Translations under genes and position numbers: made by a program | The notes under the pieces: model-generated | Databases searched by the model: none | The model's input: the letters and a program-made list of their open reading frames with translations, nothing else | Told to the model about the DNA's origin: nothing | Part shown: in pieces, positions 12,341 through 33,958 of the stretch | How positions within the stretch are numbered: position 1 is the first letter of the stretch | Layout: each line of letters begins with the position of its first letter | Source: an uncultured Bacteroides sp. | Lineage (GTDB): Bacteria; Bacteroidota; Bacteroidia; Bacteroidales; Bacteroidaceae | Direction of reading: 5' to 3' | DNA: 34,381 bases | NCBI GenBank assembly: GCA_947176775.1 | Contig: CAMWRY010000004.1 | Coordinates: 1-34,381, forward strand

Positions 12341-14911
12341 ATGATGAAGAGATTCCCCCTTTTTTTACTTGTTTTAGGATTGCTGGTACTGGAACCGGCT
12401 TCGCTTCGTGCCCGGGCGGAAGGCTTGTTACTGCCTCCTTCGGCCGAGGGGCAGTGCCGGCAGTGGGCCGACTCCGTATTGTCCGGCTTGAGTCTGCACG
12501 AAAAGGTGGGGCAGCTTATCATCGCCACCCTTCCGGCACGAGCAGATAAGGCGGCGAAGAAGCAGATGTTAGAGTTGGTAAAGCGATACAAGATAGGCGG
12601 CCTGCTGTTTTCCGAGGGCACTCCGGAGGAGCAGGCCATACTGATCAACATGGCACGGAAGGAGGCCTCCATTCCCGTCATGGTGGCGGCCGATTTTCCC
12701 CACAGCACAGCCTTGGGGTGTGTCAGAGATGAGGCGCTGGTAGAAGCATACGGGCGCGAAGTGGCTCGTCAGCATCGCGAGTTGGGAGTAGATGTCTGCC
12801 TGGTCTCCCCGGCAGACCCCTCTGTCGACCCGTTGAAGCCGCTGATACGTATAGCTTCGAAGGAAGAACTTGGCTTTGAAGTCTTGGTGCCCTCTGAAAC
12901 CATAAAGAAGACCGTGCAGGAATGGACCGATGCCGTAGAGTCGGGACAACTGGGCAAAGAGGTACTTGATGCCCGGTGCCGCAAGGTCTTGATGAATAAA
13001 TACCTGATGGGCTTGCAGCAACGCCAGCCGCGGCTTCGGGTCAGTGGAATGAGCCATCGCATCCACACGGAAGAGGCTCGGGCACTGGCTGCCCGGTTGC
13101 GCAGGTCGGCGGTGACTGTGCTGAGCAATTATTTCGATGTCCTCCCGTTGGCACCGATGGAAGGCGGCATAGCCGTGCTTAGCATCGGCGAGAAAGAGGC
13201 GGATACCCCCTTTGTGGAGGCGATGAGGAAGCAGGCCGGTATCAGCCGTTTCCACTTGCCTTGGAATGCCGACGATGCACTCCGTCAGGAGGTGCTGGGG
13301 CAGCTGGCCAATTTTCGCCGGGTGGTTGTCAGTGCCACCGGTCCGGCTTATGTCAGCAACCGCGATGCGGCTTTTCTGGAAAACCTGAATCTGCGTGCTT
13401 CGTTGGTCTATGTCTTTTTTACCTCTCACCACACCTTGCAGCTACTGGTGCCTGCTCTTGCCAAGTCCGGTGCCGTGGTGCTGGCCCATTCGGCAGAAGC
13501 CGATTTGCAGTCGCACGTGGCTGATGTACTTTTTGCCAAAGAGCCTGCCGACGGCCGGATGCCGGTAAGTATCGGAAGGTTGTTCCCGGTAGGGACGGGC
13601 TGTACGATCAGGCCGGGAGCGAAACCGGTAGAGGCGCTTCCGGAAGACTACGGCATGCGGTCGTATGTGTTGCAAGGCATCGATGCCATTGCGCGGCAAG
13701 GGATAGAGGCAGGCGCCTATCCCGGTTGCCGCGTGCTGGTATGGAAAGACGGACTGCCGGTGTACGACAAGAGTTTCGGTACGCATTCTGACAGAGATAC
13801 CATGGCTGTCCGTCCCTCGGACCTCTTCGACCTGGCTGCGTTGACCAAGACCACGGCTACGTTGCTGGCCGTGATGAAACTGTATGATGAAGGTAGAATA
13901 AAGCTGGATGACAAGGTTTCCATCTACCTGCCCCTGTTGCGCAACGGAGACAAGCGGAACATTACCCTTCGCGAATTGTTGTTCCACGAGTCGGGACTCC
14001 CTCCTTACATCCGTTTCTACCTGGATATTATCGACCCGAATTCCGTGCACGGCCCTTATTCGCAAAGTTGGAAAGATGAGTGGCACCGCACACGGGTGAG
14101 CGAGCACGGCTACTACAGCTCCGATTTCAAGTTTAGGAAGGGGATGGTGTCCGACAAAAGCACTTCTACACATACCCTGCACATGGCCGACGGGCTGTGG
14201 CTGGACAAGCGTTTCACAAGCTCCCTCCTTCAGCGGATAGCCAAGTGCGAACTGGAAAGCAAGCGCTATGTGTACAGTGACCTCGGCTTCATCCTGCTGC
14301 AACAGGTGGTGGAGAAGGTGACGGGGTTGCCGATGGACTTGTACCTTGCCCGTGAGTTCTATGCCCCGATGGGGCTGCAGCGCACCCTGTTCCAGCCGCT
14401 GGCAAAGTTTGCCGAGACGGAAATCATGCCGACGGCCTCCGACGACTTTCTGCGTCGTCAGGACCTCTGCGGATATGTGCACGACGAGACGGCCGCTTGC
14501 ATGGGCGGAGTGTCCGGCCATGCAGGGCTTTTCTCTACGGCCGAGGAGGTGGCAGCGATTTACCAAATGCTGCTGAACGGCGGCGAGCTGAACGGCAAGC
14601 GTCTGCTGAGTGAGTCTACCTGTCGCCTGTTTACGACAGAGCGCTCTGCCATTAGTCGCCGTGGTTTGGGATTCGATAAGCCGGATGTGTACAGCGTGCA
14701 GTACAGTCCTTGTGCCCCTTCGGCTTCGGAGGCGGTCTATGGCCATACCGGTTTTACCGGCACTTGCGTTTGGGCGGATCCGGTCAATAAGACGGTGTAC
14801 GTATTCCTTAGCAACACGCTGTGTCCTCATGTCTGGAACACAAAGCTGGGCGACATGGATATTCGGAGAAAAATTCAGGAACTGGTTTACAGGAGTATTA
14901 TTCCACTCTAA
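12341..14911 (+). CDS. GH3(NagZ-like)/serine beta-lactamase fusion paralog 1; GH3 core deleted and SxxK Ser replaced by Ala (putative pseudoenzyme)
   Basis: 856 aa intact ORF. Collinear with the next ORF (KVGQLIIATLP, YKIGGLLFSEG, DARCRKVLMNKYLMGLQ, GYMRSYVLQGI-type linker, GHTGFTGT) but lacks KHFPGHGDTDVDSH and the FTDALAMKG region; SxxK position reads AALTK. Confidence 0.88.
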   Translation: MMKRFPLFLLVLGLLVLEPASLRARAEGLLLPPSAEGQCRQWADSVLSGLSLHEKVGQLIIATLPARADKAAKKQMLELVKRYKIGGLLFSEGTPEEQAILINMARKEASIPVMVAADFPHSTALGCVRDEALVEAYGREVARQHRELGVDVCLVSPADPSVDPLKPLIRIASKEELGFEVLVPSETIKKTVQEWTDAVESGQLGKEVLDARCRKVLMNKYLMGLQQRQPRLRVSGMSHRIHTEEARALAARLRRSAVTVLSNYFDVLPLAPMEGGIAVLSIGEKEADTPFVEAMRKQAGISRFHLPWNADDALRQEVLGQLANFRRVVVSATGPAYVSNRDAAFLENLNLRASLVYVFFTSHHTLQLLVPALAKSGAVVLAHSAEADLQSHVADVLFAKEPADGRMPVSIGRLFPVGTGCTIRPGAKPVEALPEDYGMRSYVLQGIDAIARQGIEAGAYPGCRVLVWKDGLPVYDKSFGTHSDRDTMAVRPSDLFDLAALTKTTATLLAVMKLYDEGRIKLDDKVSIYLPLLRNGDKRNITLRELLFHESGLPPYIRFYLDIIDPNSVHGPYSQSWKDEWHRTRVSEHGYYSSDFKFRKGMVSDKSTSTHTLHMADGLWLDKRFTSSLLQRIAKCELESKRYVYSDLGFILLQQVVEKVTGLPMDLYLAREFYAPMGLQRTLFQPLAKFAETEIMPTASDDFLRRQDLCGYVHDETAACMGGVSGHAGLFSTAEEVAAIYQMLLNGGELNGKRLLSESTCRLFTTERSAISRRGLGFDKPDVYSVQYSPCAPSASEAVYGHTGFTGTCVWADPVNKTVYVFLSNTLCPHVWNTKLGDMDIRRKIQELVYRSIIPL

Positions 14912-14937: not shown

Positions 14938-17900
14938 ATGAAGCGAATACATCAACTTACCTGCCTTATCCTATTGTGTTGTTTTTGTCCGGCTTTGAAA
15001 GCGCAGCTCGGCCCGATGCCGTTGACCCCGATGCCGCTGGACGAACCTTCACTTGTACGCCTTCTGCATAGCGATGTCCGTTGCAAGCAGTGGGTGGACT
15101 CCGTCATGCGGCGTATGACCTTGAAAGAGCGCATTGGCCAACTATTCATCTATACGATTGCCCCCCAGCAGGACAAGGCCAACAAGGAGCTGCTCCGCAA
15201 GGTGGTGGAGGAGTACAAAGTTGGCGGTCTGCTCTTCTCCGGCGGCTTGATGCAAAACCAGGTGATGCTGACCAATGAGGCACAGCGGATGGCAAAGGTG
15301 CCGCTGATGATAACCTTTGATGGCGAGTGGGGATTGGCCATGCGCCTGCGCGGTACGCCGAGCTTCCCGAAAAACCGGGTGCTGGGGTGCATACAGAATG
15401 ATACTTTGATTTATGAATACGGGCGCGAGGTGGCCCGTCAGTGTCGCGAGTTGGGAGTGCAGGTGAACTTCGCTCCCGTGGCAGACGTGAACATCAATCC
15501 CAAGAATCCGGTGATTAATACCCGTTCCTTCGGTGAAAGTCCGTTCCAGGTGGCGAACAAGGTCGTTGCCTATGCCAAAGGGCTGGAAGATGGCGGCGTG
15601 CTCTCCGTCTGCAAGCACTTCCCGGGCCATGGAGACACGGATGTGGATTCCCACAAGGCGCTGCCCTTCCTGCCCTTTACCCGTGCCCGTCTGGACAGCG
15701 TAGAGCTATATCCCTTTCGGAGGGCCATTCGTGCCGGACTGGGCGGAATGATGGTAGGCCACTTGGAAGTGCCTGCCATCGAGCCGAAAAAGGGAGTTCC
15801 CTCTTCGCTTTCGCGCAAGGTGGTTTCCGACCTGCTGGTGGATGAACTGGGATTCCAGGGATTGGTCTTTACGGATGCCCTTGCCATGAAGGGGGTATCG
15901 GCCCATGAAAGCCTCTGCTTGCAGGCGCTGAAAGCCGGGAACGACCTGCTGCTGGTTCCCCGGCGCCTCAAGGAGGAGGTGGAGGCCGTGCTTGCCGCCG
16001 TGAAGAGCGGCGAGCTGACGGAGAAGGAGATAGAGGCCAAATGCCGGAAAGTACTAAAGTATAAGTATGCTCTTGGTCTGGAGAAGAAGCCTCATATACA
16101 GCTTTCGGGCTTGGACGCGCGCATCTGTACGTCGAAGACGCGCGACCTGATGAGGCGGCTGAACCAGGCGGCTATCACCGTGCTGAGCAACCGGGACGAA
16201 GTGCTTCCGTTGGATCCTTCCATCGGCGAGGTGGCCGTGCTCCATGTAGGAGAGGCACAGGGGCTTCAGCCCTTTTTGAAAGAGCTCTCCAAATACACCC
16301 GTCCCGTAGAGTTCCGCTTGGGCAAGGAGTTGCCGGAGGCGGAAGGAAACCGCTTGAAGAGTACGCTGTCCAAGTACAAACGCATTCTGGTCTGCGTCAC
16401 CGAACATCGCTTGGCGCCTTATCAGAACTTCCTTTCCAAGTTTACTCCCGATGTGCCGGTGGTTTATCTGCTCTTTATTCCCGGCAATCAGGTGTTGCAG
16501 GTGAGGAAAGGGGTTGCTTCGGCCGGATCGGTGGTGTTGGCACACGCTTCCGCTGACGAGGTGCAGCAGCAGGTGGCCCGGATTGTCTATGGTGGTGCCG
16601 GTTCGGAGGGCCGGTTGTCTGCCAGCATCGGTACGCTCTTTACTACCGGGACGGGCGTGACGCTGACTCCGCAGAGTGTCCCCCATTTTGTACCCGAAGA
16701 GCATGGCATGAACGCCCGTATGCTGGCGGAAATAGACAAGATAGCCGAAGAGGGCATCCGCGAAGGAGCCTATCCCGGTTGCCAGGTAGTGGTGCTGAAG
16801 GATGGCAAGGAGATGTATAACAAGGCTTTCGGTACCCACATCGGGACGAGGGCCGGAAGCAAATCTCTGCCGGTAAAGAAGACGGACGTATATGACCTCG
16901 CTTCGCTGACCAAGACCACCGCTACTCTGCTGGCCGTAATGAAGCTTTACGACAGCGGTCGTCTCAGCCTGACGGACCGCGTATCGGATTATCTGCCTTA
17001 TCTGCAAGATACGGACAAGAAGCATATTACGGTACGCGAACTGCTGATGCACGAATCCGGGTTGCCCTCTACGCTGATGTTCTATCAAGAGGCCATCGAC
17101 AAGGAGAGCTATACGGGGCCTTTGTTCAAGGCGCGACCCGATGCCTTGCACAAGGTACGCATCGGGCGGCAAACGTGGGCCAATCCGGCCTTCCATTTCC
17201 GACAAGGAGTGACGTCGAAGGTGAGGACACCGGAACATACCATGCAGGTGACGGACAGCCTTTGGCTGAACCGCTCTTTCAAGGAGGACTATTTGCAGAA
17301 GATAGTGGATACTCCGCTTCGCGACAAGCGCTATCGGTATAGCTGTGTGGGCTTCATCCTGTTGCAGCAGGTGGTCGAGGCGCGTGCTGGTATGACGATG
17401 GATGAATACCTTGCCCGGGAGTTTTATACCCCGATGGGGCTGAAGCGTACCGGTTATCTTCCTTTGCGTTTCGTGAAGAGGGAAGAGATAGTGCCTTCCT
17501 CCGTAGATCCCTTTTTGCGCAAGACTACCCTACAGGGCTTTGTGCACGATGAATCTGCCGCTTTTCAAGGTGGCGTTTCCGGTAATGCCGGACTCTTCTC
17601 CACTGCCGGGGAGGTGGCGAAAGTCTATCAGATGTTGCTGAATGGAGGCGAGTTGGACGGAAAGCGCTATCTGAGCAAGGAGACTTGCCGGCTCTTTACG
17701 ACCACCGTCTCGAAGATAAGCCGCCGGGGACTGGGCTTTGACAAGCCGGACCGTCGCAATCTGCAGAAGAGCCCGTGTGCCGAGTCGGCTCCTGCTTCGG
17801 TCTACGGGCATACCGGCTTTACAGGTACTTGTGCCTGGGTAGACCCGGAGAACAAGCTGGTTTATGTGTTTCTGAGCAACCGCATCTATCCGGATGTGTG

Positions 17901-17982
17901 GAACAACAAGTTGATGCAGTCGGGGATAAGGACGAGGGTTCAGGAGGCGGTGTATAAAAGTCTGGTTTCTCCGAAGCCTTGA
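14938..17982 (+). CDS. GH3 beta-N-acetylglucosaminidase (NagZ-like) fused to class C-like beta-lactamase domain, paralog 2
   Basis: 1014 aa; KHFPGHGDTDVDSHKALP and LVFTDALAMKGV (GH3), ASLTKTTATLL (SxxK), GHTGFTGT (KTG-like) motifs. Confidence 0.93.
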   Translation: MKRIHQLTCLILLCCFCPALKAQLGPMPLTPMPLDEPSLVRLLHSDVRCKQWVDSVMRRMTLKERIGQLFIYTIAPQQDKANKELLRKVVEEYKVGGLLFSGGLMQNQVMLTNEAQRMAKVPLMITFDGEWGLAMRLRGTPSFPKNRVLGCIQNDTLIYEYGREVARQCRELGVQVNFAPVADVNINPKNPVINTRSFGESPFQVANKVVAYAKGLEDGGVLSVCKHFPGHGDTDVDSHKALPFLPFTRARLDSVELYPFRRAIRAGLGGMMVGHLEVPAIEPKKGVPSSLSRKVVSDLLVDELGFQGLVFTDALAMKGVSAHESLCLQALKAGNDLLLVPRRLKEEVEAVLAAVKSGELTEKEIEAKCRKVLKYKYALGLEKKPHIQLSGLDARICTSKTRDLMRRLNQAAITVLSNRDEVLPLDPSIGEVAVLHVGEAQGLQPFLKELSKYTRPVEFRLGKELPEAEGNRLKSTLSKYKRILVCVTEHRLAPYQNFLSKFTPDVPVVYLLFIPGNQVLQVRKGVASAGSVVLAHASADEVQQQVARIVYGGAGSEGRLSASIGTLFTTGTGVTLTPQSVPHFVPEEHGMNARMLAEIDKIAEEGIREGAYPGCQVVVLKDGKEMYNKAFGTHIGTRAGSKSLPVKKTDVYDLASLTKTTATLLAVMKLYDSGRLSLTDRVSDYLPYLQDTDKKHITVRELLMHESGLPSTLMFYQEAIDKESYTGPLFKARPDALHKVRIGRQTWANPAFHFRQGVTSKVRTPEHTMQVTDSLWLNRSFKEDYLQKIVDTPLRDKRYRYSCVGFILLQQVVEARAGMTMDEYLAREFYTPMGLKRTGYLPLRFVKREEIVPSSVDPFLRKTTLQGFVHDESAAFQGGVSGNAGLFSTAGEVAKVYQMLLNGGELDGKRYLSKETCRLFTTTVSKISRRGLGFDKPDRRNLQKSPCAESAPASVYGHTGFTGTCAWVDPENKLVYVFLSNRIYPDVWNNKLMQSGIRTRVQEAVYKSLVSPKP

Positions 17983-22812: not shown

Positions 22813-22840
22813 AGGAGGCTTTTTGCCTCCTTTCTATCTT
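22813..22840 (+). terminator. Intrinsic terminator after SGNH gene
   Basis: AGGAGGC-TTTTT-GCCTCCT stem followed by a T/C-rich tract. Confidence 0.7.
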
Positions 22841-23027: not shown

Positions 23028-23111
23028 GGTTTCTGTTCTCAGCTTTGGAACAGACATCCGTAACCTTGGAACGTTTGTTCCAAACCTTGGAGTATACGTC
23101 CGTAAACTGGG
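23028..23111. repeat. Four imperfect 21-bp tandem units (minus-strand consensus about CCAAGGTTACGGACGTCTGTT)
   Basis: Units 23111-23091, 23090-23070, 23069-23049, 23048-23028 on the minus strand; the translation of that frame shows a 7-aa repeat PSLRTYT/PRFGTNV/PRLRMSV/PKLRTET. Confidence 0.75.
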
Positions 23112-23136: not shown

Positions 23137-23523
23137 TAAGTTCCGTGAGAACTTGGTCTACATCTGCCACTTTCCAACTGATGGAAATAGAACAACTATA
23201 CAACCTCAATAGAACAATGATTCTTACGGCAGCTGAAAGCAGGGGGACTGACTATAGTAAAGGAGCTGGCAGAAGTGCATTGGACAAACGGTAGAACGAA
23301 CGGGACATTTTCGGGACCTAGACAGACGATTTTTGTCGGTAAAAAAACGAACTTTTTCCGGATAGAATTGAGGAATAAACAGAAAATTTGGAAAGATTAT
23401 TCTGGTAGAACCACTTGTTTTTAAGAAATATCCTATCCAAAAGTACCGTTATTTTAAAATAATACCTATATTTGCCTTCGTTATTTTAAAAGTTGTTATA
23501 TAACCAAGTTCTCACGGAACTTA
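23137..23523. promoter_or_regulatory. Candidate invertible promoter segment upstream of SusC
   Basis: Perfect 21-bp inverted repeat TAAGTTCCGTGAGAACTTGGT (23137-23157) / ACCAAGTTCTCACGGAACTTA (23503-23523), each arm with internal dyad AAGTTC-N5-GAACTT; contains rightward TATATTTG (23467-23474). Confidence 0.8.
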
Positions 23524-23693: not shown

Positions 23694-26600
23694 ATGAAAA
23701 TTAACCTTTTATGGAATCACAAGAGAACTCGATCCATGAGTTTTCTTAAAGCCGTGGGCATGGGCTGTACGTTGTTCTGCTGTGTTCCGGTAAATGCTAT
23801 TTCAGGAACATTGGGTGACAGTTTGTTACCAACTGTCTTGCAAGAAAAAACAATCAAAGGAACGGTGCTTGATGCACAAGGAGAACCGCTGATTGGAGTT
23901 TCTATCCTCGTCGAAGGAAGCACTGTGGGTACCATAACAAACATCGACGGTAACTTTGAACTGACTGCTGATAAGGGAGCCGTACTGATAGTTTCTTATA
24001 TCGGTTATCAGACCCAGAGGCTGACTGCCGGCGACTCGCCTTTGAGAGTCGTGCTGAAGGAAGACTCGCAGTTGCTGGACGAAGTGGTGGTCGTGGGTTA
24101 CGGTACTACTTCCAAGCGCAAGACCACTTCGGCCGTATCTCAGGTGAAAGCGGAAGAACTGGCCAAAGTGCCGGTGCCCAATATTACCCAGAGTTTGGCA
24201 GGACGTGCGCCGGGACTTATTGTCACTCAGTCCGGTGGTGGTGTCAATGCTAAGGCATCCATCTCCATCCGTGGTGGCGGCACCCCTCTGTATGTAATAG
24301 ACAACATCATCTGCGAGGAGCGTGACTTCCAGAATCTGAATCCAGAAGACATCGATCAGATGTCCATCCTGAAGGATGCTTCTGCCACAGCCGTCTACGG
24401 TGCCCGGGCCGCCAACGGTATTGTAATGGTGACTACCAAGAGCGGAAAGACTGGCAAACTGAACGTGGACTACAGCTTTAACTATACGCTGAGCCAGCCT
24501 GCCGATTTGCAGGACAAGGTAGATGCCTATACAGCTGCCAGCTACGTGAACCGTGGATTGGAATATGACGGACGTGCACCACAATATACCCAAGAGGATT
24601 TGGATCTCTTTCGAAATGGCAAAGATCCGCAAGGCCATCCTAATGTGGACTGGCACAACCTCACTATGCGGACATTCGCTCCCGAAATGCGCCATAATCT
24701 GACGCTGACTGGAGGTAGCGAGACCATGAAGATATATACAGGCCTAGGTTATTATAACCAAGGATCAATCTATCGCACCAACTCCAACAACATGCAACGT
24801 TACAACTTCCGTACCAATCTGGAAGCGAATCTGAAGAGCATCGGATTGAAGATGGTAGCCGGTGTGGATGCCTACATCGTGGATCTGAATGAGCCTGCCA
24901 CGGCCAATGGACGTGGTTATTACACCACTTGGTCGCATATTCAGAACAAGAGACCGTGGGAGGCCGCATACAATCCCTACGGACAGATTTATAGTGGTAC
25001 CACCGACAATCCTCTGGTAGATATTAGTGATTTGGGCGGTTACTACAAGGAGTCAAAGTCTTCTGTACGGGGCAACCTGAATCTGGAATGGGCGGTTCCT
25101 TGGGTGGAAGGACTGACGTTGAAAGCCTTAGGCAGTTACACGATTGCCAATGACCGCAACAAGTCGTGGAACAAATCAGCACAGACTTATGACTGGGAGG
25201 GCAATCCGGCAACTTCCAATAAACCTAACCTAAGTAAGGAGACCTATTATCATCGTAACTTCAACGCACAATTCTTTGCCGATTATGTCCGTACCTTCCA
25301 GGAAGTGCACACGGTAGGTGCCACTTTCGGTATCGAGGCGAGCGGTCAGGATTATGACAACTCTGGCTTGTCGCGCAAGGAATACATTTTTGATGTGGAC
25401 CAGATAGGCTCCGGTCCAGTAGACACCTCTGAAAACTGGTCGAGCGAAGGAATAGGCTATCGGCGTGCTGCCTTGATTGGGCGTGTGAAGTACGACTATG
25501 CCGCCAAGTACATGGTGGAAGCCAATGTCCGTTACGACGGTAGCGACTATTTCCCCTCGGGCGAACGCTGGGGAGCTTTTTTCTCTGGTTCTGTGGCATG
25601 GGCCGTATCTGAGGAAAACTTCTGGAAGAACTGGAATATGGACAAGATTTTCGACCAGTTCAAGTTGCGTGCCTCCTATGGCGAGATTGGTCAGGACTTC
25701 CTCGACCTGAACGGTGACGGGGCAGCCGACCGTTTCGCTTATATCTCCTCTTATACCTTATATACACGTGGCGCCTTTCTGGGTGAGAAGTGGTACCCAA
25801 GTTTTGCCGAGGGTTCTCTCATCAGCCCGGACATGACGTGGTACACCACCAAGGACTTCAATATCGGAATTGACTTTGCCTCATTGAACAGCCGTCTGTC
25901 CGGTTCTGTAGACTATTTTGCTAAGGTGACCACCGGTTATCTGGCCACTCCCTCTAATGTGGGATATACCTCTCCGTTGGGTAAAAATCTGCCGGTAGTG
26001 AAATCAAACGGTGAGAGTATCCGCCGCGGTTTTGAGTTTGTATTGCAATGGAAGGATCAGATAGGTGACCTGCACTATGGAGTTTCTGCCAACATGACTT
26101 GCTACGATGACCGCTGGAACATCAATCCCAACGAGGCTGAAACCTCTTTGAAGAACCCTTATAAACGCGGAACGCAGGTAGGTGCCTACACCGGTTCTTA
26201 TTATAAAAATTTGGGTTATTACACCGATTACCAAGATGTGATGAACAATCCGAAACGCAACGGCTCAACAAAACTGATGGCTGGTGACTTGAAGTATTAT
26301 GACTTCAATGGCGACGGTAAGATTGACGGTGACGACCAGTATCGTATGGGTAACGGTACTAGCCCGAGAGCCAATTATGGTATCAATGTAGATATGAGCT
26401 ATAAGGGATGGTCTTTTAACATGTTGTGGCAAGGTGCTACCAATTACAACATCTATGTGGATGCTATACTGATGGGTGGTAACAGCAATTATCTCCCTGT
26501 CATCTACGATTTCCAGACGGATATCTGGTCGCCGGACAACCGCGATGCGCTCTATCCTCGTCAGCATGCGTCAGCCGGATTCAATGGCAACAACAACTTT

Positions 26601-26858
26601 GTGGGAACTGACTTCTGGCTGGTGGATGCACGTTACATCCGTCTGAAAAATATGTCTATCGGATATGATTTCAAGCACAAACTGTTGAAGAACGTCTCTT
26701 GGATGACCAAGTGTAATCTTTCTTTGGCCGGTTATAATCTGCTGACGTTCAGCCCTGCAAAAAAATGGGGATTCGACCCGGAATCCGGCTCTAGCGGCAG
26801 TGGATATACATACCCCATTTCGCGAGTTTATACAGTAAGTTTGAACATTGGATTCTAA
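23694..26858 (+). CDS. SusC/RagA-family TonB-linked outer membrane protein
   Basis: 1054 aa; carboxypeptidase-like regulatory domain (IKGTVLDAQGEPLIGVSILVEGSTVGTITNIDGNF), plug (VVVVGYGTTSKRKTTSAVSQV), SILKDASATAVYGARAANGIVMVTTKSGK. Confidence 0.97.
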   Translation: MKINLLWNHKRTRSMSFLKAVGMGCTLFCCVPVNAISGTLGDSLLPTVLQEKTIKGTVLDAQGEPLIGVSILVEGSTVGTITNIDGNFELTADKGAVLIVSYIGYQTQRLTAGDSPLRVVLKEDSQLLDEVVVVGYGTTSKRKTTSAVSQVKAEELAKVPVPNITQSLAGRAPGLIVTQSGGGVNAKASISIRGGGTPLYVIDNIICEERDFQNLNPEDIDQMSILKDASATAVYGARAANGIVMVTTKSGKTGKLNVDYSFNYTLSQPADLQDKVDAYTAASYVNRGLEYDGRAPQYTQEDLDLFRNGKDPQGHPNVDWHNLTMRTFAPEMRHNLTLTGGSETMKIYTGLGYYNQGSIYRTNSNNMQRYNFRTNLEANLKSIGLKMVAGVDAYIVDLNEPATANGRGYYTTWSHIQNKRPWEAAYNPYGQIYSGTTDNPLVDISDLGGYYKESKSSVRGNLNLEWAVPWVEGLTLKALGSYTIANDRNKSWNKSAQTYDWEGNPATSNKPNLSKETYYHRNFNAQFFADYVRTFQEVHTVGATFGIEASGQDYDNSGLSRKEYIFDVDQIGSGPVDTSENWSSEGIGYRRAALIGRVKYDYAAKYMVEANVRYDGSDYFPSGERWGAFFSGSVAWAVSEENFWKNWNMDKIFDQFKLRASYGEIGQDFLDLNGDGAADRFAYISSYTLYTRGAFLGEKWYPSFAEGSLISPDMTWYTTKDFNIGIDFASLNSRLSGSVDYFAKVTTGYLATPSNVGYTSPLGKNLPVVKSNGESIRRGFEFVLQWKDQIGDLHYGVSANMTCYDDRWNINPNEAETSLKNPYKRGTQVGAYTGSYYKNLGYYTDYQDVMNNPKRNGSTKLMAGDLKYYDFNGDGKIDGDDQYRMGNGTSPRANYGINVDMSYKGWSFNMLWQGATNYNIYVDAILMGGNSNYLPVIYDFQTDIWSPDNRDALYPRQHASAGFNGNNNFVGTDFWLVDARYIRLKNMSIGYDFKHKLLKNVSWMTKCNLSLAGYNLLTFSPAKKWGFDPESGSSGSGYTYPISRVYTVSLNIGF

Positions 26859-26891: not shown

Positions 26892-28751
26892 ATGAAAAGT
26901 AAATATATACTGCCTATCTTCTTGATGGGAACTGTCGGTTTACAAAGCTGCGGTGATTTCTTGGATACAGAACCGACAGAAGGTTTTCCCGAAACTGTAG
27001 TCTGGGAAACGCAAAGCACGGTAGATGCATTTGTCATCGGCAATTACGGAAATGCTTATAGCCCCTATGAAGCTTTTTCCACATGGGACAAGACTTTCAG
27101 CAACAACATGGTGAACTGCCGTGCCACTTGCCCGGGGGAGGTGCGCGGACTGATGGAGAATACTTATGGATGGGGACTGAACGACCGTTTTACGGCTATT
27201 CGTAACTGCAACCTGATTATAGAGAAAATGGCTGCTTCTAGTCTGGCCGATGTGCAAAAGGCGCAGTTTGTGGCCGAGGCCAAAATGATGCGTGCCATGA
27301 TTTATTATGATTTGGCCCGTAAGGGTGGACGGTATATCTGGGTGGACCATGTATTGAGTACGGAAGACGAGTTCAACCTCCCGTTGACTAAAGATATTAC
27401 GGAAAGTTACCAACATGTGCTGACGGATATTCGCGAAGCTATTCCGGGATTGCCGGAAACGGCAGTCAGCGGTCGTCTGACCCGTAATGCAGCGTATGCT
27501 TTTCTTTCGGAAGTGTGTCTGACGGCTGCCGCCTATACCGATGATGCCGCCGCTTTGCAGCAGGGTGGAAAAAGTTTGTATCAGGAGGCCGTGGATGCTG
27601 TGGATGCGCTGAAAGGCGTTTCGCTTGATCCTGATTATGAGGATATGTTCAATCAGAATGGAGCTTACTCTTCTTCTGAAATCATCTTGGCTCATTATTG
27701 GAGTAAGGATGCGACCACAGTGCAGGGTACCGATATGATTAACCTGATTCCCAACTTGCTGAACAGCAATCTGTCCATCACTAACTGTGGCCCGTTGTTC
27801 AAAATTGCGGATATCTTCGAATGCTGGTTGGACCATACTCCCAGCCAGAACTTGGTGGATGATTATCTGGTGATAGACCAGACAACAGGAAAAGCGGTGC
27901 GTTGGGATGAATCCTCTCAGTTTGTCAATAATACCCGTCCGTTAAGCCGTGAGGAGGCCATGACTAAAATAGACCACAAGGAGGATGCCGAATTTAACGG
28001 CGCTCCGTATTTTAAGGCATTTGAGGTGACAACTCCCGGAACTAGCATCAGCGACTTGATGTACCAGCATCGTGATAAGCGTTTCGATGCTTCTATCATT
28101 CATGATGGGTCTGTCTTCCTGGGTGAGAACATCACGACCTATTCTTATGGAAACATGAGCCGTTGGGCCACTCAGCGCTATGCTTCGGACCACGTACCCT
28201 TGACCAACTATAGCACTCGCAAGTATATATATACTGAATGGAGTCCTCGTCCTTTCTATAATGTATATACGGATTATCACAAGATTCTGTTCCGTTACGG
28301 ACGTGCGTTGCTGAATAAGGCTGAGGCTCTTCTTCGTTTGAATAAGGTGTCGGAGGCAGTAGCTGTGTTGAATCAGACTCGCGTGACTCACGGAGGTCTT
28401 CCTGCTTCGGAAGCCGCTACATTAGCTGATGCTTGGAAGGATTACAAAATAGAGCGTCGTGTGGAGCTGTTTTGGGAAGGTGACTGGTACTTCAGTCTGT
28501 TGCGTTGGGGCAAATATGGCAAGGAGGCCAATGATGGAAAAGAGCCAGGAAGTGTCATTGACGAATTGACCGAACCGGCAACCTTTATTGAGATTAAGAC
28601 AGACCGTACCGCTGCGTATGTGGGCAATGTGCAGTTGTCTAATGATGACCGCAAGTTCGATGTACGTTCTTACCTGTTCCCGATTACCAAATCCGTCATT
28701 CAGGCTAATTCGGCCATCAGCGAATCGGATCAGAATCCGGGCTGGGAATAA
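26892..28751 (+). CDS. SusD/RagB-family nutrient-binding outer membrane lipoprotein
   Basis: 619 aa; lipobox LQSCGDFLDTEPTE; SusD C-terminal motifs (RRVELFWEGDWYFSLLRWG, YLFPI); directly after SusC. Confidence 0.96.
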   Translation: MKSKYILPIFLMGTVGLQSCGDFLDTEPTEGFPETVVWETQSTVDAFVIGNYGNAYSPYEAFSTWDKTFSNNMVNCRATCPGEVRGLMENTYGWGLNDRFTAIRNCNLIIEKMAASSLADVQKAQFVAEAKMMRAMIYYDLARKGGRYIWVDHVLSTEDEFNLPLTKDITESYQHVLTDIREAIPGLPETAVSGRLTRNAAYAFLSEVCLTAAAYTDDAAALQQGGKSLYQEAVDAVDALKGVSLDPDYEDMFNQNGAYSSSEIILAHYWSKDATTVQGTDMINLIPNLLNSNLSITNCGPLFKIADIFECWLDHTPSQNLVDDYLVIDQTTGKAVRWDESSQFVNNTRPLSREEAMTKIDHKEDAEFNGAPYFKAFEVTTPGTSISDLMYQHRDKRFDASIIHDGSVFLGENITTYSYGNMSRWATQRYASDHVPLTNYSTRKYIYTEWSPRPFYNVYTDYHKILFRYGRALLNKAEALLRLNKVSEAVAVLNQTRVTHGGLPASEAATLADAWKDYKIERRVELFWEGDWYFSLLRWGKYGKEANDGKEPGSVIDELTEPATFIEIKTDRTAAYVGNVQLSNDDRKFDVRSYLFPITKSVIQANSAISESDQNPGWE

Positions 28752-28783: not shown

Positions 28784-29260
28784 ATGAAGAAAATAATATT
28801 TTCAACCGTAAAATGGGTGCTTTTATTGATTTGTCTTCCGTTCGTGAGTGCATGTGACTGGGAAGACCTGCCTGCATATGAAGAGGCGGAAATCAGTGCG
28901 GTCCAATTGTATTATCGTTGGGCAAGTAATGAAAAAGACCCTGTGACGCAAGAACCTATCGTAAAGGAACAGCGTTTGAATGTCAGTAGTGATGTGAATT
29001 CCGAGTCCGGTTTGATTCAATTGACAGTAACTGTGCCTGCCGCCGGAGGCGACTTTACGGAAGCTGTCCGCAACGGAGTTACTACGAATCCATTGTGGGG
29101 ACAGGTGACTGTATCGACTGCTGCTCGGATTACTCCTATGAAGGGAACTGCTGCTTTGGGTACTCCTGATGATTGGAGCAGTGAACGGAAATTCAGTGTG
29201 AAAGCTGCTAATGGAAACACCAAGACATGGACAATCAAGATTGTCCAGTTCAATAAATGA
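28784..29260 (+). CDS. Small PUL-associated surface lipoprotein, putative glycan-binding (SusE-position)
   Basis: 158 aa; lipobox FVSACDWEDLP; third gene of the SusCD operon; family not certain. Confidence 0.75.
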   Translation: MKKIIFSTVKWVLLLICLPFVSACDWEDLPAYEEAEISAVQLYYRWASNEKDPVTQEPIVKEQRLNVSSDVNSESGLIQLTVTVPAAGGDFTEAVRNGVTTNPLWGQVTVSTAARITPMKGTAALGTPDDWSSERKFSVKAANGNTKTWTIKIVQFNK

Positions 29261-29431: not shown

Positions 29432-31237
29432 ATGATGAAAATCTATTTGCCTTTATTCTTCTTTTTGTGCTTGGCTTGTGGCTTCCAGGCGCACCCCCGG
29501 CAGATTGACACGTTGTGTGTCGCCGCTTACGGCTTCCGTCCCTATTCCTACGAAAACCAGACCGGCAGGATGCAGTCCGTGATAGAAGATTGCAAGAAGT
29601 TCAAAACCAAAGTGCTGGTGCTCGAGAAGGGACGTTACGACTTTTGGCCCGAAGGGGCAGTGCGCAAGGAGTATTTTATCACCAATACCTCCACTGAGCA
29701 GGAGTGCCCCTCGAAAATGAAAACCATCGGCCTCTTTCTGGAGAATGTAGAGGGACTAACGGTCGAGGGGAACGGTGCCACCTTGATGTTTCATGGAAAA
29801 ATGACCATGTTGGCCATGGCACATTGCCGGGAGGTGAAACTGAGAAATTTACATCTGGATGCCGAACGTCCGGGAGGGTCGGAGTTGACCTATACGCGTG
29901 TGGACAGCCAAAGCGTGGAAGTCGCTTTTCACCGCGATTCCCGTTATGAAATAGCGGATGGGAAAATTCATCTGTATGGCGAGGGATGGCGTTCCAACAG
30001 GACACATTGCATCGAGTATGATTCTCAGGACGAACATTTCTTTTATAGTAACGGATGGAACAAGCTGGCGGCTTCGGAGGCTAAGGAAGTGGCACCCGGA
30101 GTGGTTCGTTTTACCACACCGTTAGGTTTCCAGCCCAAAGTGGGCAACACGTTGACGGTGCGCGACATCATCAGGGACCAGGTAGGAATGTTCATCTACG
30201 AAAGTCAGGATATAACACTGGACCGGATAGGGATGCACTATATGCACGGTCTGGGAATTGTTAGCCAATACAGCCGTAACCTGACCATGGACCGGGTGGA
30301 GTGTACACCTCGTCAGGGAAGTGGACGCCTGCTGGCTTCCTCGGCCGATTTCATGCACTTCTCAGGTTGCAGTGGAAAAATCAGCATTTTGGGCTGCCGT
30401 TATGCCGGAGCACAGGATGACCCGATAAATGTACACGGTACCAATCTGCGTGCCATCCGGCAGATAAATGATCGGACTTTGGAGCTGCGGTTCATGCATG
30501 GTCAGAGCTATGGCTTCAATGCCTACTTTGAGCAAGACACTGTCGCCTTTGTCAAGGCATCCACTATGGAACGTTTCGCTTTAGCTACGGTGAAGTCCGT
30601 GAAGCGTCTCACCGACCGGACTCTGGAAGTAGAGTTTGACCGTGCGATTCCGAAAGAGTTGGAGTTGGGACATGATTGTGTAGAGAATATGAGCTGTACG
30701 CCTGAAGTGGAAATACGTCATTGTTATTTTACTCGAACCAGCACGCGTGGTACGCTGATGACCACTCCTCGTAAAGTGGTGATAGCCGACAATACGTATT
30801 ACAAAACGGGGATGAGTGCCATCCTGATAGAGGGTGATGCGGAGGGGTGGTATGAGTCCGGTCCGGTCAGGGATGTCCTGATACAGAACAATACGTTCAT
30901 CGACTGCGCCTACAACGGCGGACCGGGTAACGCTGTCATCGCTCTGCATCCTTCGAATACCGTAGTAGATGCCGACCGTCCGGTGCATCGCAATGTGCGT
31001 ATCATCGGCAACAAGTTCCAGACGTGGGGCAATCCGGTTCTGTATGCCAAGAGCACCGAAGGACTGGTGTTTAAAGATAACGAAGTAGTGCCGATATCCG
31101 GTAGGGAAGTTCCGTCGAAGGAACAGTTCATTCTGAATGGATGCAAGAACGTGGAGATAAAGAATAATATTTTTGCCGCTCCGTTCTCGAAAGAGGCCAT
31201 CCGTTTTGAGAACATGAAAAAGAAGTATAAGAAATAA
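29432..31237 (+). CDS. GH110-family alpha-1,3-galactosidase
   Basis: 601 aa, signal sequence, parallel beta-helix architecture; resembles Bacteroides GlaA/GlaB proteins from memory (AAYGFRPYSYEN, GGAQDDPINVHGT-like CRYAGAQDDPINVHGTNLR, TPEVEIRHCYFTRTSTRGTLMTTPRKVVI). Confidence 0.85.
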   Translation: MMKIYLPLFFFLCLACGFQAHPRQIDTLCVAAYGFRPYSYENQTGRMQSVIEDCKKFKTKVLVLEKGRYDFWPEGAVRKEYFITNTSTEQECPSKMKTIGLFLENVEGLTVEGNGATLMFHGKMTMLAMAHCREVKLRNLHLDAERPGGSELTYTRVDSQSVEVAFHRDSRYEIADGKIHLYGEGWRSNRTHCIEYDSQDEHFFYSNGWNKLAASEAKEVAPGVVRFTTPLGFQPKVGNTLTVRDIIRDQVGMFIYESQDITLDRIGMHYMHGLGIVSQYSRNLTMDRVECTPRQGSGRLLASSADFMHFSGCSGKISILGCRYAGAQDDPINVHGTNLRAIRQINDRTLELRFMHGQSYGFNAYFEQDTVAFVKASTMERFALATVKSVKRLTDRTLEVEFDRAIPKELELGHDCVENMSCTPEVEIRHCYFTRTSTRGTLMTTPRKVVIADNTYYKTGMSAILIEGDAEGWYESGPVRDVLIQNNTFIDCAYNGGPGNAVIALHPSNTVVDADRPVHRNVRIIGNKFQTWGNPVLYAKSTEGLVFKDNEVVPISGREVPSKEQFILNGCKNVEIKNNIFAAPFSKEAIRFENMKKKYKK

Positions 31238-31462: not shown

Positions 31463-33958
31463 ATGAAAAGATTATTAATCTTGATGTTGGGGCTTTGTCC
31501 CCTGTGTCCCTCCTTAGTGAAGGCGGACGATAAGGTTCCTCCTTCTCGTGATCTCACCTTCTGGTTTGACACTCCTACCACATTGCGTGGGATGGCCGTT
31601 TGGTACGGCGGTCGTCCTGATATGTGGGACGGTGAGAAGAAGCCCGAGTTTGCCGGCAACTCCGCGGAGAACCCGGATTCGGACTGGGAGTCCCGTTCTC
31701 TTCCTGTCGGTAACGGCAGTATCGGCGGTAATATCTTAGGTTCTGTGGAGGCCGAGCGCATAACCTTCAACGAGAAGACCCTTTGGCGCGGCGGTCCTAA
31801 TACGGCTAAAGGGGCTGCCTACTATTGGGATGTGAACAAGCAGTCGGCACATGTGCTGGATGACATTCGGCAAGCCTTCACGGAGGGTGATTCGGAGAAG
31901 GCGGCATTGTTGACGCGCAAGCACTTCAATAGCACGGTACCCTATGAGGCATACGCAGAGAATCCCTTCCGTTTCGGTAATTTCACAACAATGGGCGAGT
32001 TCTATATAGAAACAGGGCTTAGTACGGTCGGCATGAGCCGTTATCGGCGTGCACTTTCCCTCGACTCCGCTTTGGCCACGGTGAGCTTCCGGAAGGATGG
32101 AGTGTTCTATAAGCGCTCTTACTTCGTTTCCTATCCGGCCAATGTCATGGTTGTACGTTTCGGTGCCGATACTCCTGGTATGCAGAACTTGACCTTCAGT
32201 TATTCCCCAAATCCGGTGTCCACGGGCGTCATTTCCGCCGACGGCTCCGATGGTTTGGTATATACCGGGCGTCTAGACAACAATAATATGGAATACGTGG
32301 TCCGCATCCGTGCCATTTCCCGGGGTGGTTCGCTCTCCAATGTCAATGGAAAGTTGTGTGTGAAAGGCGCTGACGAGGTTGTGTTCCTGATTACAGCCGA
32401 CACCGATTACAAGATAAACTTTGTCCCCGACTTTGCCGACCCTCGTGCCTATGTTGGCGTCAATCCTTCGGAGACCACCTCTGCATGGATGCGTGATGCG
32501 CACTCCAAGGGCTATGACCGTCTTTTCTCGGAGCATTATTCTGACTACTCCTCTCTGTTTGGTAAGGTAAAGCTCAATCTCGGTGCCTCCTCCGGTTATG
32601 AGGACATTCCCGTCACTCGCCGGCTTGCGAATTACCGCAAGGGTCTTCCGGACCTCTATCTGGAGGAACTCTATTACCAGTTCGGCCGTTATCTACTCAT
32701 CGCCAGCTCCCGTCCTGGTAATCTTCCGGCTAACCTTCAGGGAATCTGGCACAACAATGTAGACGGTCCTTGGAGAGTGGACTACCACAATAACATTAAT
32801 GTACAGATGAACTATTGGCCTGCCTGCTCCACCAACCTGGATGAGTGTGTTCTGCCCTTGGTTGACTTCATCCGTACGCTGGTGAAGCCTGGTAGCCAGA
32901 CTGCGCGTTCTTATTTTGGTGCCCGTGGTTGGACTGCCTCCATTTCTGGCAACATCTTCGGTTTCACCGCGCCTTTGAGCAGTGAGGACATGTCTTGGAA
33001 CTTCAACCCGATGGCAGGTCCGTGGCTTGCCACGCATGTGTGGGAATACTACGACTATACGCGCGACCGTAAGTTCTTGAAGGAAGTGGGCTATGATTTG
33101 ATTAAAAGCAGTGCTAACTTTGCCGTGGACTATCTCTGGCATAAGCCGGACGGGAGCTACACCGCCGCACCGTCAACCTCTCCCGAGCACGGTCCAGTAG
33201 ACCAGGGCGCTACGTTTGTACATGCTGTTGTGAGGGAGATTCTGCTTGACGCCATCGAGGCGAGCAAAGTACTGGGTGTGGATGTCAAGGAGCGCAAGCA
33301 GTGGCAGCATGTGCTGGAGCATCTTGCCCCTTACCGTATCGGTCGCTACGGCCAGCTGATGGAGTGGTCGTCCGACATTGATGATCCCAAGGACGAGCAC
33401 CGGCACGTCAACCATCTTTTCGGCCTGCATCCCGGTCATACACTTTCTCCTGTCACCACTCCCGAGTTGGCGCAGGCAGCCCGAGTTGTTTTGGAACACC
33501 GCGGTGACGGCGCTACTGGCTGGAGCATGGGCTGGAAGCTAAACCAGTGGGCTCGCCTCCATGACGGTAACCACGCCTACAAGCTTTTCGGCAATCTGCT
33601 CAAGAACGGTACTTTGGATAATCTATGGGACACGCATCCCCCCTTTCAGATAGATGGTAACTTCGGCGGTACAGCCGGAATCACTGAGATGCTCCTTCAG
33701 AGCCACATGGGTTTCATCCAGCTTCTTCCGGCTCTTCCGGATGCTTGGAAGGAGGGTTCTGTAAGCGGCCTCCGTGCTAGGGGCAACTTCGAAGTAGACA
33801 TCCGTTGGGAGGATGGCTCTCTGAAGTCCGCTTCTGTCCTCTCGCTTTCGGGAACTCCCTGTATCATACGGTATAATGGGGAAGAACTTTCCTTCAAGAC
33901 AGTGAAGGGCAGGAGTTATGAAATCTGTTTTGAGAAGGGGAAATTGAGTCTGAAATAG
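31463..33958 (+). CDS. GH95-family alpha-L-fucosidase
   Basis: About 832 aa; W-x-SxxLPVGNGSIGGNILG..ERITFNEKTLWRGGP N-terminal domain motif; NLQGIWHNNVDGPWRVDYHNNINVQMNYWPA; SPEHGP. ATG 31463 preferred over GTG 31457. Confidence 0.92.
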   Translation: MKRLLILMLGLCPLCPSLVKADDKVPPSRDLTFWFDTPTTLRGMAVWYGGRPDMWDGEKKPEFAGNSAENPDSDWESRSLPVGNGSIGGNILGSVEAERITFNEKTLWRGGPNTAKGAAYYWDVNKQSAHVLDDIRQAFTEGDSEKAALLTRKHFNSTVPYEAYAENPFRFGNFTTMGEFYIETGLSTVGMSRYRRALSLDSALATVSFRKDGVFYKRSYFVSYPANVMVVRFGADTPGMQNLTFSYSPNPVSTGVISADGSDGLVYTGRLDNNNMEYVVRIRAISRGGSLSNVNGKLCVKGADEVVFLITADTDYKINFVPDFADPRAYVGVNPSETTSAWMRDAHSKGYDRLFSEHYSDYSSLFGKVKLNLGASSGYEDIPVTRRLANYRKGLPDLYLEELYYQFGRYLLIASSRPGNLPANLQGIWHNNVDGPWRVDYHNNINVQMNYWPACSTNLDECVLPLVDFIRTLVKPGSQTARSYFGARGWTASISGNIFGFTAPLSSEDMSWNFNPMAGPWLATHVWEYYDYTRDRKFLKEVGYDLIKSSANFAVDYLWHKPDGSYTAAPSTSPEHGPVDQGATFVHAVVREILLDAIEASKVLGVDVKERKQWQHVLEHLAPYRIGRYGQLMEWSSDIDDPKDEHRHVNHLFGLHPGHTLSPVTTPELAQAARVVLEHRGDGATGWSMGWKLNQWARLHDGNHAYKLFGNLLKNGTLDNLWDTHPPFQIDGNFGGTAGITEMLLQSHMGFIQLLPALPDAWKEGSVSGLRARGNFEVDIRWEDGSLKSASVLSLSGTPCIIRYNGEELSFKTVKGRSYEICFEKGKLSLK

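Follow-up and report, generated by a model that had tools for sequence, protein, structure and literature searches.

The segment at positions 23137-23523 of the window, by which the whole analysed stretch of 34,381 nucleotides is meant, is very probably an invertible promoter (inverton) of a SusC/SusD cluster. The window represents contig C4 of a 2.2-Mb assembly (MAG) that consists of 285 contigs and is 64.5% complete. Switches of this kind are known in Bacteroides, and it is well supported that the segment is a new example, one of three in the genome. A preliminary description of the window had proposed a candidate invertible promoter driving the SusC/SusD polysaccharide utilization locus (PUL), and this proposal is supported by the site class, the geometry, the recurrence of such segments, the matched spacers and the orientations found in B. 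fragilis.

Structure of the segment and the downstream locus

The features of the region are as follows.

22813..22831, plus strand: terminator-like hairpin 3' of the upstream GDSL gene
23137..23157, plus strand: SusC-distal arm TAAGTTCCGTGAGAACTTGGT, core site AAGTTC-CGTGA-GAACTT at 23138-23154
23158..23502, strand not applicable: putatively invertible interior between the arms, 345 bp, noncoding
23467..23474, plus strand: -7 element TATATTTG (Bacteroides TAnnTTTG), facing susC and ending 31 bp before the proximal core site
23503..23523, minus strand: SusC-proximal arm ACCAAGTTCTCACGGAACTTA, core site at 23506-23522, spacer identical but inverted
23694..26858, plus strand: susC, SusC/RagA family TonB-linked outer membrane protein (TIGR04056, 857 bits), presumed first driven gene
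26892..28751, plus strand: susD
28784..29260, plus strand: DUF5018-related protein, probable lipoprotein
29432..31237, plus strand: GLAA-B (GH110-like) beta-helix enzyme
31463..33958, plus strand: GH95 glycosidase

The geometry given in the preliminary description was borne out in each particular. The arms, 21 nt each and 345 nt apart, are 100% complementary, the dyad is exact in either arm, the interior is AT-rich (36% GC), and the segment, which measures 387 bp including the arms, ends 170 bp before the susC ATG. The arms constitute the sole exact 21-mer inverted pair less than 2 kb apart in the window; the chance expectation for such a pair is about 1e-5 by simple arithmetic (34381 x 2000 / 4^21). 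Both arms contain AGTTCCGTGAGAACT, which fits the pattern AGTYYYN4GAACT. The suggested search for other copies of the repeat was carried out: an exact 20-mer of the arm had no copies in the MAG beyond the two arms, and the dyad led to two further inverted pairs. A search with the window DNA found no homologue of the switch DNA itself in 151 genomes of the genus.

The motif TAnnTTTG is the Bacteroides -7 consensus (PMC4747536). The match described near the right arm and aimed at SusC was confirmed as TATATTTG, 31 bp inside the proximal core site, and transcription would proceed from this element. An ON state of the window copy, predicted from the direction of TATATTTG, is supported. No clear -33 element was identified for the TATATTTG promoter. 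A second match to TAnnTTTG, TACTTTTG, absent from the preliminary description, lies on the minus strand at 23438-23445, points in the opposite direction and is 283 bp from the distal core site. The -7 element is flanked by a direct repeat, GTTATTTTAAAA, at 23448-23459 and 23480-23491 (32 bp apart), which could be a regulator site. The terminator-like hairpin presumably insulates the switch from upstream transcription. Just beyond the distal arm, at 23041-23105, there are about three imperfect units of about 21 bp (TTTGGAACAGACATCCGTAAC, CTTGGAACGTTTGTTCCAAAC and CTTGGAGTATACGTCCGTAAAC); Tandem Repeats Finder reported no array there, and the units were partly seen as the inverted repeat I4.

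The PUL with its GH110-like and GH95 enzymes, which presumably targets galactosylated or fucosylated host glycans, as family knowledge suggests, would be put under stochastic on/off control by the switch. Elsewhere in the window, at 12341-14911 and 14938-17982, two adjacent paralogous-looking long ORFs (856 and 1014 aa) were observed that, judged by eye, resemble GH3 enzymes carrying a beta-lactamase-like domain at the C-terminus.

Sites of the same class in the genome and the genus

The dyad AAGTTC-N5-GAACTT is represented in the MAG by five exact sites and by a further arm that deviates at one position, and the exact copies are confined to three inverted pairs, each located upstream of a SusC-type gene. 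The spacers, CGTGA in the window, CTTTA at C6 and C29 and CTGTA/TACAG at C256, are the same within a locus and different between loci. The match within a locus fits strand exchange by a site-specific recombinase, which requires matching spacers. In all three pairs TATATTTG faces the adjoining susC, at 31, 31 and 43 bp. As same-class switches are found at two further susC genes, a single enzyme probably generates diversity at several glycan-uptake loci.

The second of these switches, with a 26-bp inverted repeat and its promoter ON, is split by the assembly between the ends of C6 and C29, the joining of which rests on an 89-bp end overlap with 2 mismatches. The third, on C256, belongs to a SusC that is 92% identical to a SusC of G084 with a promoter facing away. 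Whether the C256 segment is homologous to the inverted G084 segment was also considered; the alignment up to the -7 element was suggestive, its score was within the shuffle range, and the case was not counted.

All three switches of the MAG, an incomplete and fragmented genome, appear to be ON. Elsewhere in the genus, the segments of this class that could be scored and had one clear direction, eight in number, are all OFF; these are different loci. It is quite unlikely that one recombinase sets several glycan-uptake switches jointly in a manner dependent on habitat; the habitat contrast assumes a metagenomic origin of the window genome and, for most of the other genomes, an origin from cultured isolates.

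In the 52 genomes of the genus with listed sites, same-spacer pairs less than 15 kb apart were inverted in 42 cases and direct in none; the count of 42 is partly redundant through close relatives and corresponds to 28 distinct paired spacers. Nearly all inspected segments adjoin or run into susC. Outward-facing -7 elements near an arm were observed 12 times against a shuffle mean of 3.3, a number that 0 of 1000 shuffles reached, and the exact TATATTTG occurred outward-facing near an arm 9 times against 0.39 in shuffles. The segments of some relatives contain no TAnnTTTG match. A search for the exact 17-mer across genome contigs returned 44 stretches, mostly from unrelated organisms with a single site, as expected by chance. 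Sites of the class were also observed within susC coding sequences (L093 on G001:C48, L233, L235 and L237), where inversion would exchange the N-terminal part between two receptors with no promoter flip.

Orthologous loci and inversions in B. fragilis

The B. fragilis-type genomes G081 and S82 possess an orthologous PUL (57% identity for SusC, 52% for SusD, 50-51% for the DUF5018-related protein and 75% for GH95; the GH110-like protein of G081 is 65% identical to that of the window). Upstream of its susC this PUL has a pair of sites of the class, with the spacer TTTCA and at most 2 mismatches per arm. The interior is unrelated in sequence to that of the window, and the -7 element faces away from susC, which corresponds to the OFF state. 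The G081 and S82 segments, when compared for inversion, had the same orientation. Three further genomes, G148, G039 and G090, encode orthologous PULs with SusC proteins 57-73% identical to the window SusC, and no inverted site pair was found upstream of the orthologous susC in any of them. In G148 the gene stands behind sigma-factor and FecR genes, whereas the window susC stands behind the inverted site pair; the SusC of G039 has an STN domain. It seems that one PUL can stand behind a putative invertible promoter in some species and behind a sigma-factor/FecR pair in another.

The site class is active in B. fragilis. In strain Q1F2, a 13.43-kb interior occurs both on the chromosome and on a 45-kb contig (99.99% identity) in the same orientation, and the left and right flanks of this segment are swapped between the contigs with 99.9-100% identity. 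The breakpoints sit at AAGTTC-TAAAC-GAACTT. The B. fragilis genomes have the same site class at nested SusC segments. In strain S82, a 1,623-bp contig starts and ends with an arm, two other contigs terminate exactly at an arm, and the sequence common to the contig ends is merely 17 bp. As a 17-bp repeat by itself would not usually interrupt an assembly, the S82 reads probably contained both orientations.

The two orientations of the nested SusC/SusD segment of Q1F2 occupy C1:401500-419000 and C2:16400-33900. Further near-species pairs compared for inversion were collinear, and Q1F2 C1 against C2 was the first inverted one.

Relation to described systems and the candidate recombinase

The published site consensus of the B. 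fragilis recombinase Tsr0667 is reportedly AGTYYYN4GAACT. The likeness of the window sites to this system lies in their fit to that consensus, and the recombinase family of about 390 aa considered below may be that of BF0667. According to PMC4747536, Tsr0667 controls inversions at SusC/SusD clusters; the invertible regions of B. fragilis YCH46 controlled by Tsr0667 (BF0667; Nakayama-Imaohji, 2009) are cited in PMC4747536 and PMC12632263. That system combines SusC/SusD loci, a tyrosine recombinase and both local and distant sites, as does the class of the window with its candidate enzyme, and the association with susC/susD is found at the window too. Compared with the YCH46 regions, the window comes from another species and has other spacers.

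PhaseFinder surveys describe inverton groups of Bacteroidota, such as group 131, located close to genes for TonB receptors and RagB/SusD (PMC11892184). As presented there, these groups are intergenic, contain the Bacteroides promoter motif and lie beside TonB/SusD genes, as at the window; however, they were found with reads, while the window switch was found from sequence and is likened to group 131 by gene context. The capsule promoters of B. fragilis governed by Mpi are likewise invertible and have a TAnnTTTG -7 element (PMC4747536). Mpi, however, is a serine recombinase acting at capsule loci, whereas the site class of the window is tied to a tyrosine recombinase, and susC, susD and glycosidases, not a capsule locus, lie downstream of the window segment.

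Promoter inversion in trans by a Tsr0667-type tyrosine recombinase is the most likely mechanism. This enzyme, encoded at another place in the chromosome, would pair the two AGTYYYN4GAACT sites, and strand exchange within the matching spacers would invert the 345-bp interior. With the segment oriented as read, TATATTTG would drive transcription of the SusC-SusD-lipoprotein-GH110-GH95 cluster through the proximal arm. After a flip, the promoter would point in the opposite direction, toward 22773, leaving the cluster silent.

The enzyme family likely to flip the switch is a tyrosine recombinase family of about 390 aa, present in 94 of 151 genomes of the genus, the genes of which adjoin susC/D pairs or sit between them. 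Sites matching AGTYYYN4GAACT occur at 24 of 30 loci of this family against 0 of 93 loci of other tyrosine recombinases. At 17 of the 30 loci an inverted same-spacer pair encloses the gene, as found by a 15-mer test; the strict 17-mer test gave no pairs, one arm being without the outer base. Exact pairs were found in 18 of 28 near-complete genomes with an intact gene and in 1 of 14 where it was missing or broken (Fisher p = 0.0007), a count confounded by phylogeny and drawn from genomes selected for having sites. Across the genus, a single site class is tied in this way to a single conserved family of tyrosine recombinases, a connection that can be tested in the context of inverton catalogues.

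In agreement with the preliminary description, which placed no recombinase gene in the window, a search of the contig for tyrosine recombinases found none. The genome-wide search it had suggested, carried out for tyrosine recombinases, succeeded in part: five non-Xer tyrosine recombinases were detected in the MAG, but the candidate family was not found in this 64.5% complete assembly, an absence that may be due to incompleteness. Two of the families considered, those of C94 and C230, were rejected as the enzyme because their distribution does not follow the sites.

A real inversion performed by one of the five recombinases present or by a serine invertase is regarded as unlikely. At the 93 loci of other tyrosine recombinases that were examined, no site of the class was nearby, and relatives of the C94 gene are 36-41% identical in the site-rich B. 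fragilis and G087, while a 60% match is in the site-less G007. A matched spacer of 5 bp, such as the inverted arms have, fits a tyrosine recombinase.

It is very unlikely that the segment is a relic of past recombination, now locked ON after the loss of the recombinase by the strain. The lack of the candidate family in the MAG and the broken copies of its gene in other genomes of the genus would agree with such a loss. However, the incompleteness of the MAG makes the absence weak evidence, the arms are perfect over 21 bp, whereas disused arms should drift, and genomes with a missing or broken gene rarely retain exact pairs, as the above counts indicate. That the repeat is an operator, with a regulator binding the dyad in both arms, or an RNA/DNA structure is hardly credible: the presence of a dyad within each arm recalls many operators, but the spacers are matched by locus, differ between loci and are always inverted and never direct, none of which an operator needs, and the inversions seen in assemblies have their breakpoints exactly at sites of this kind.
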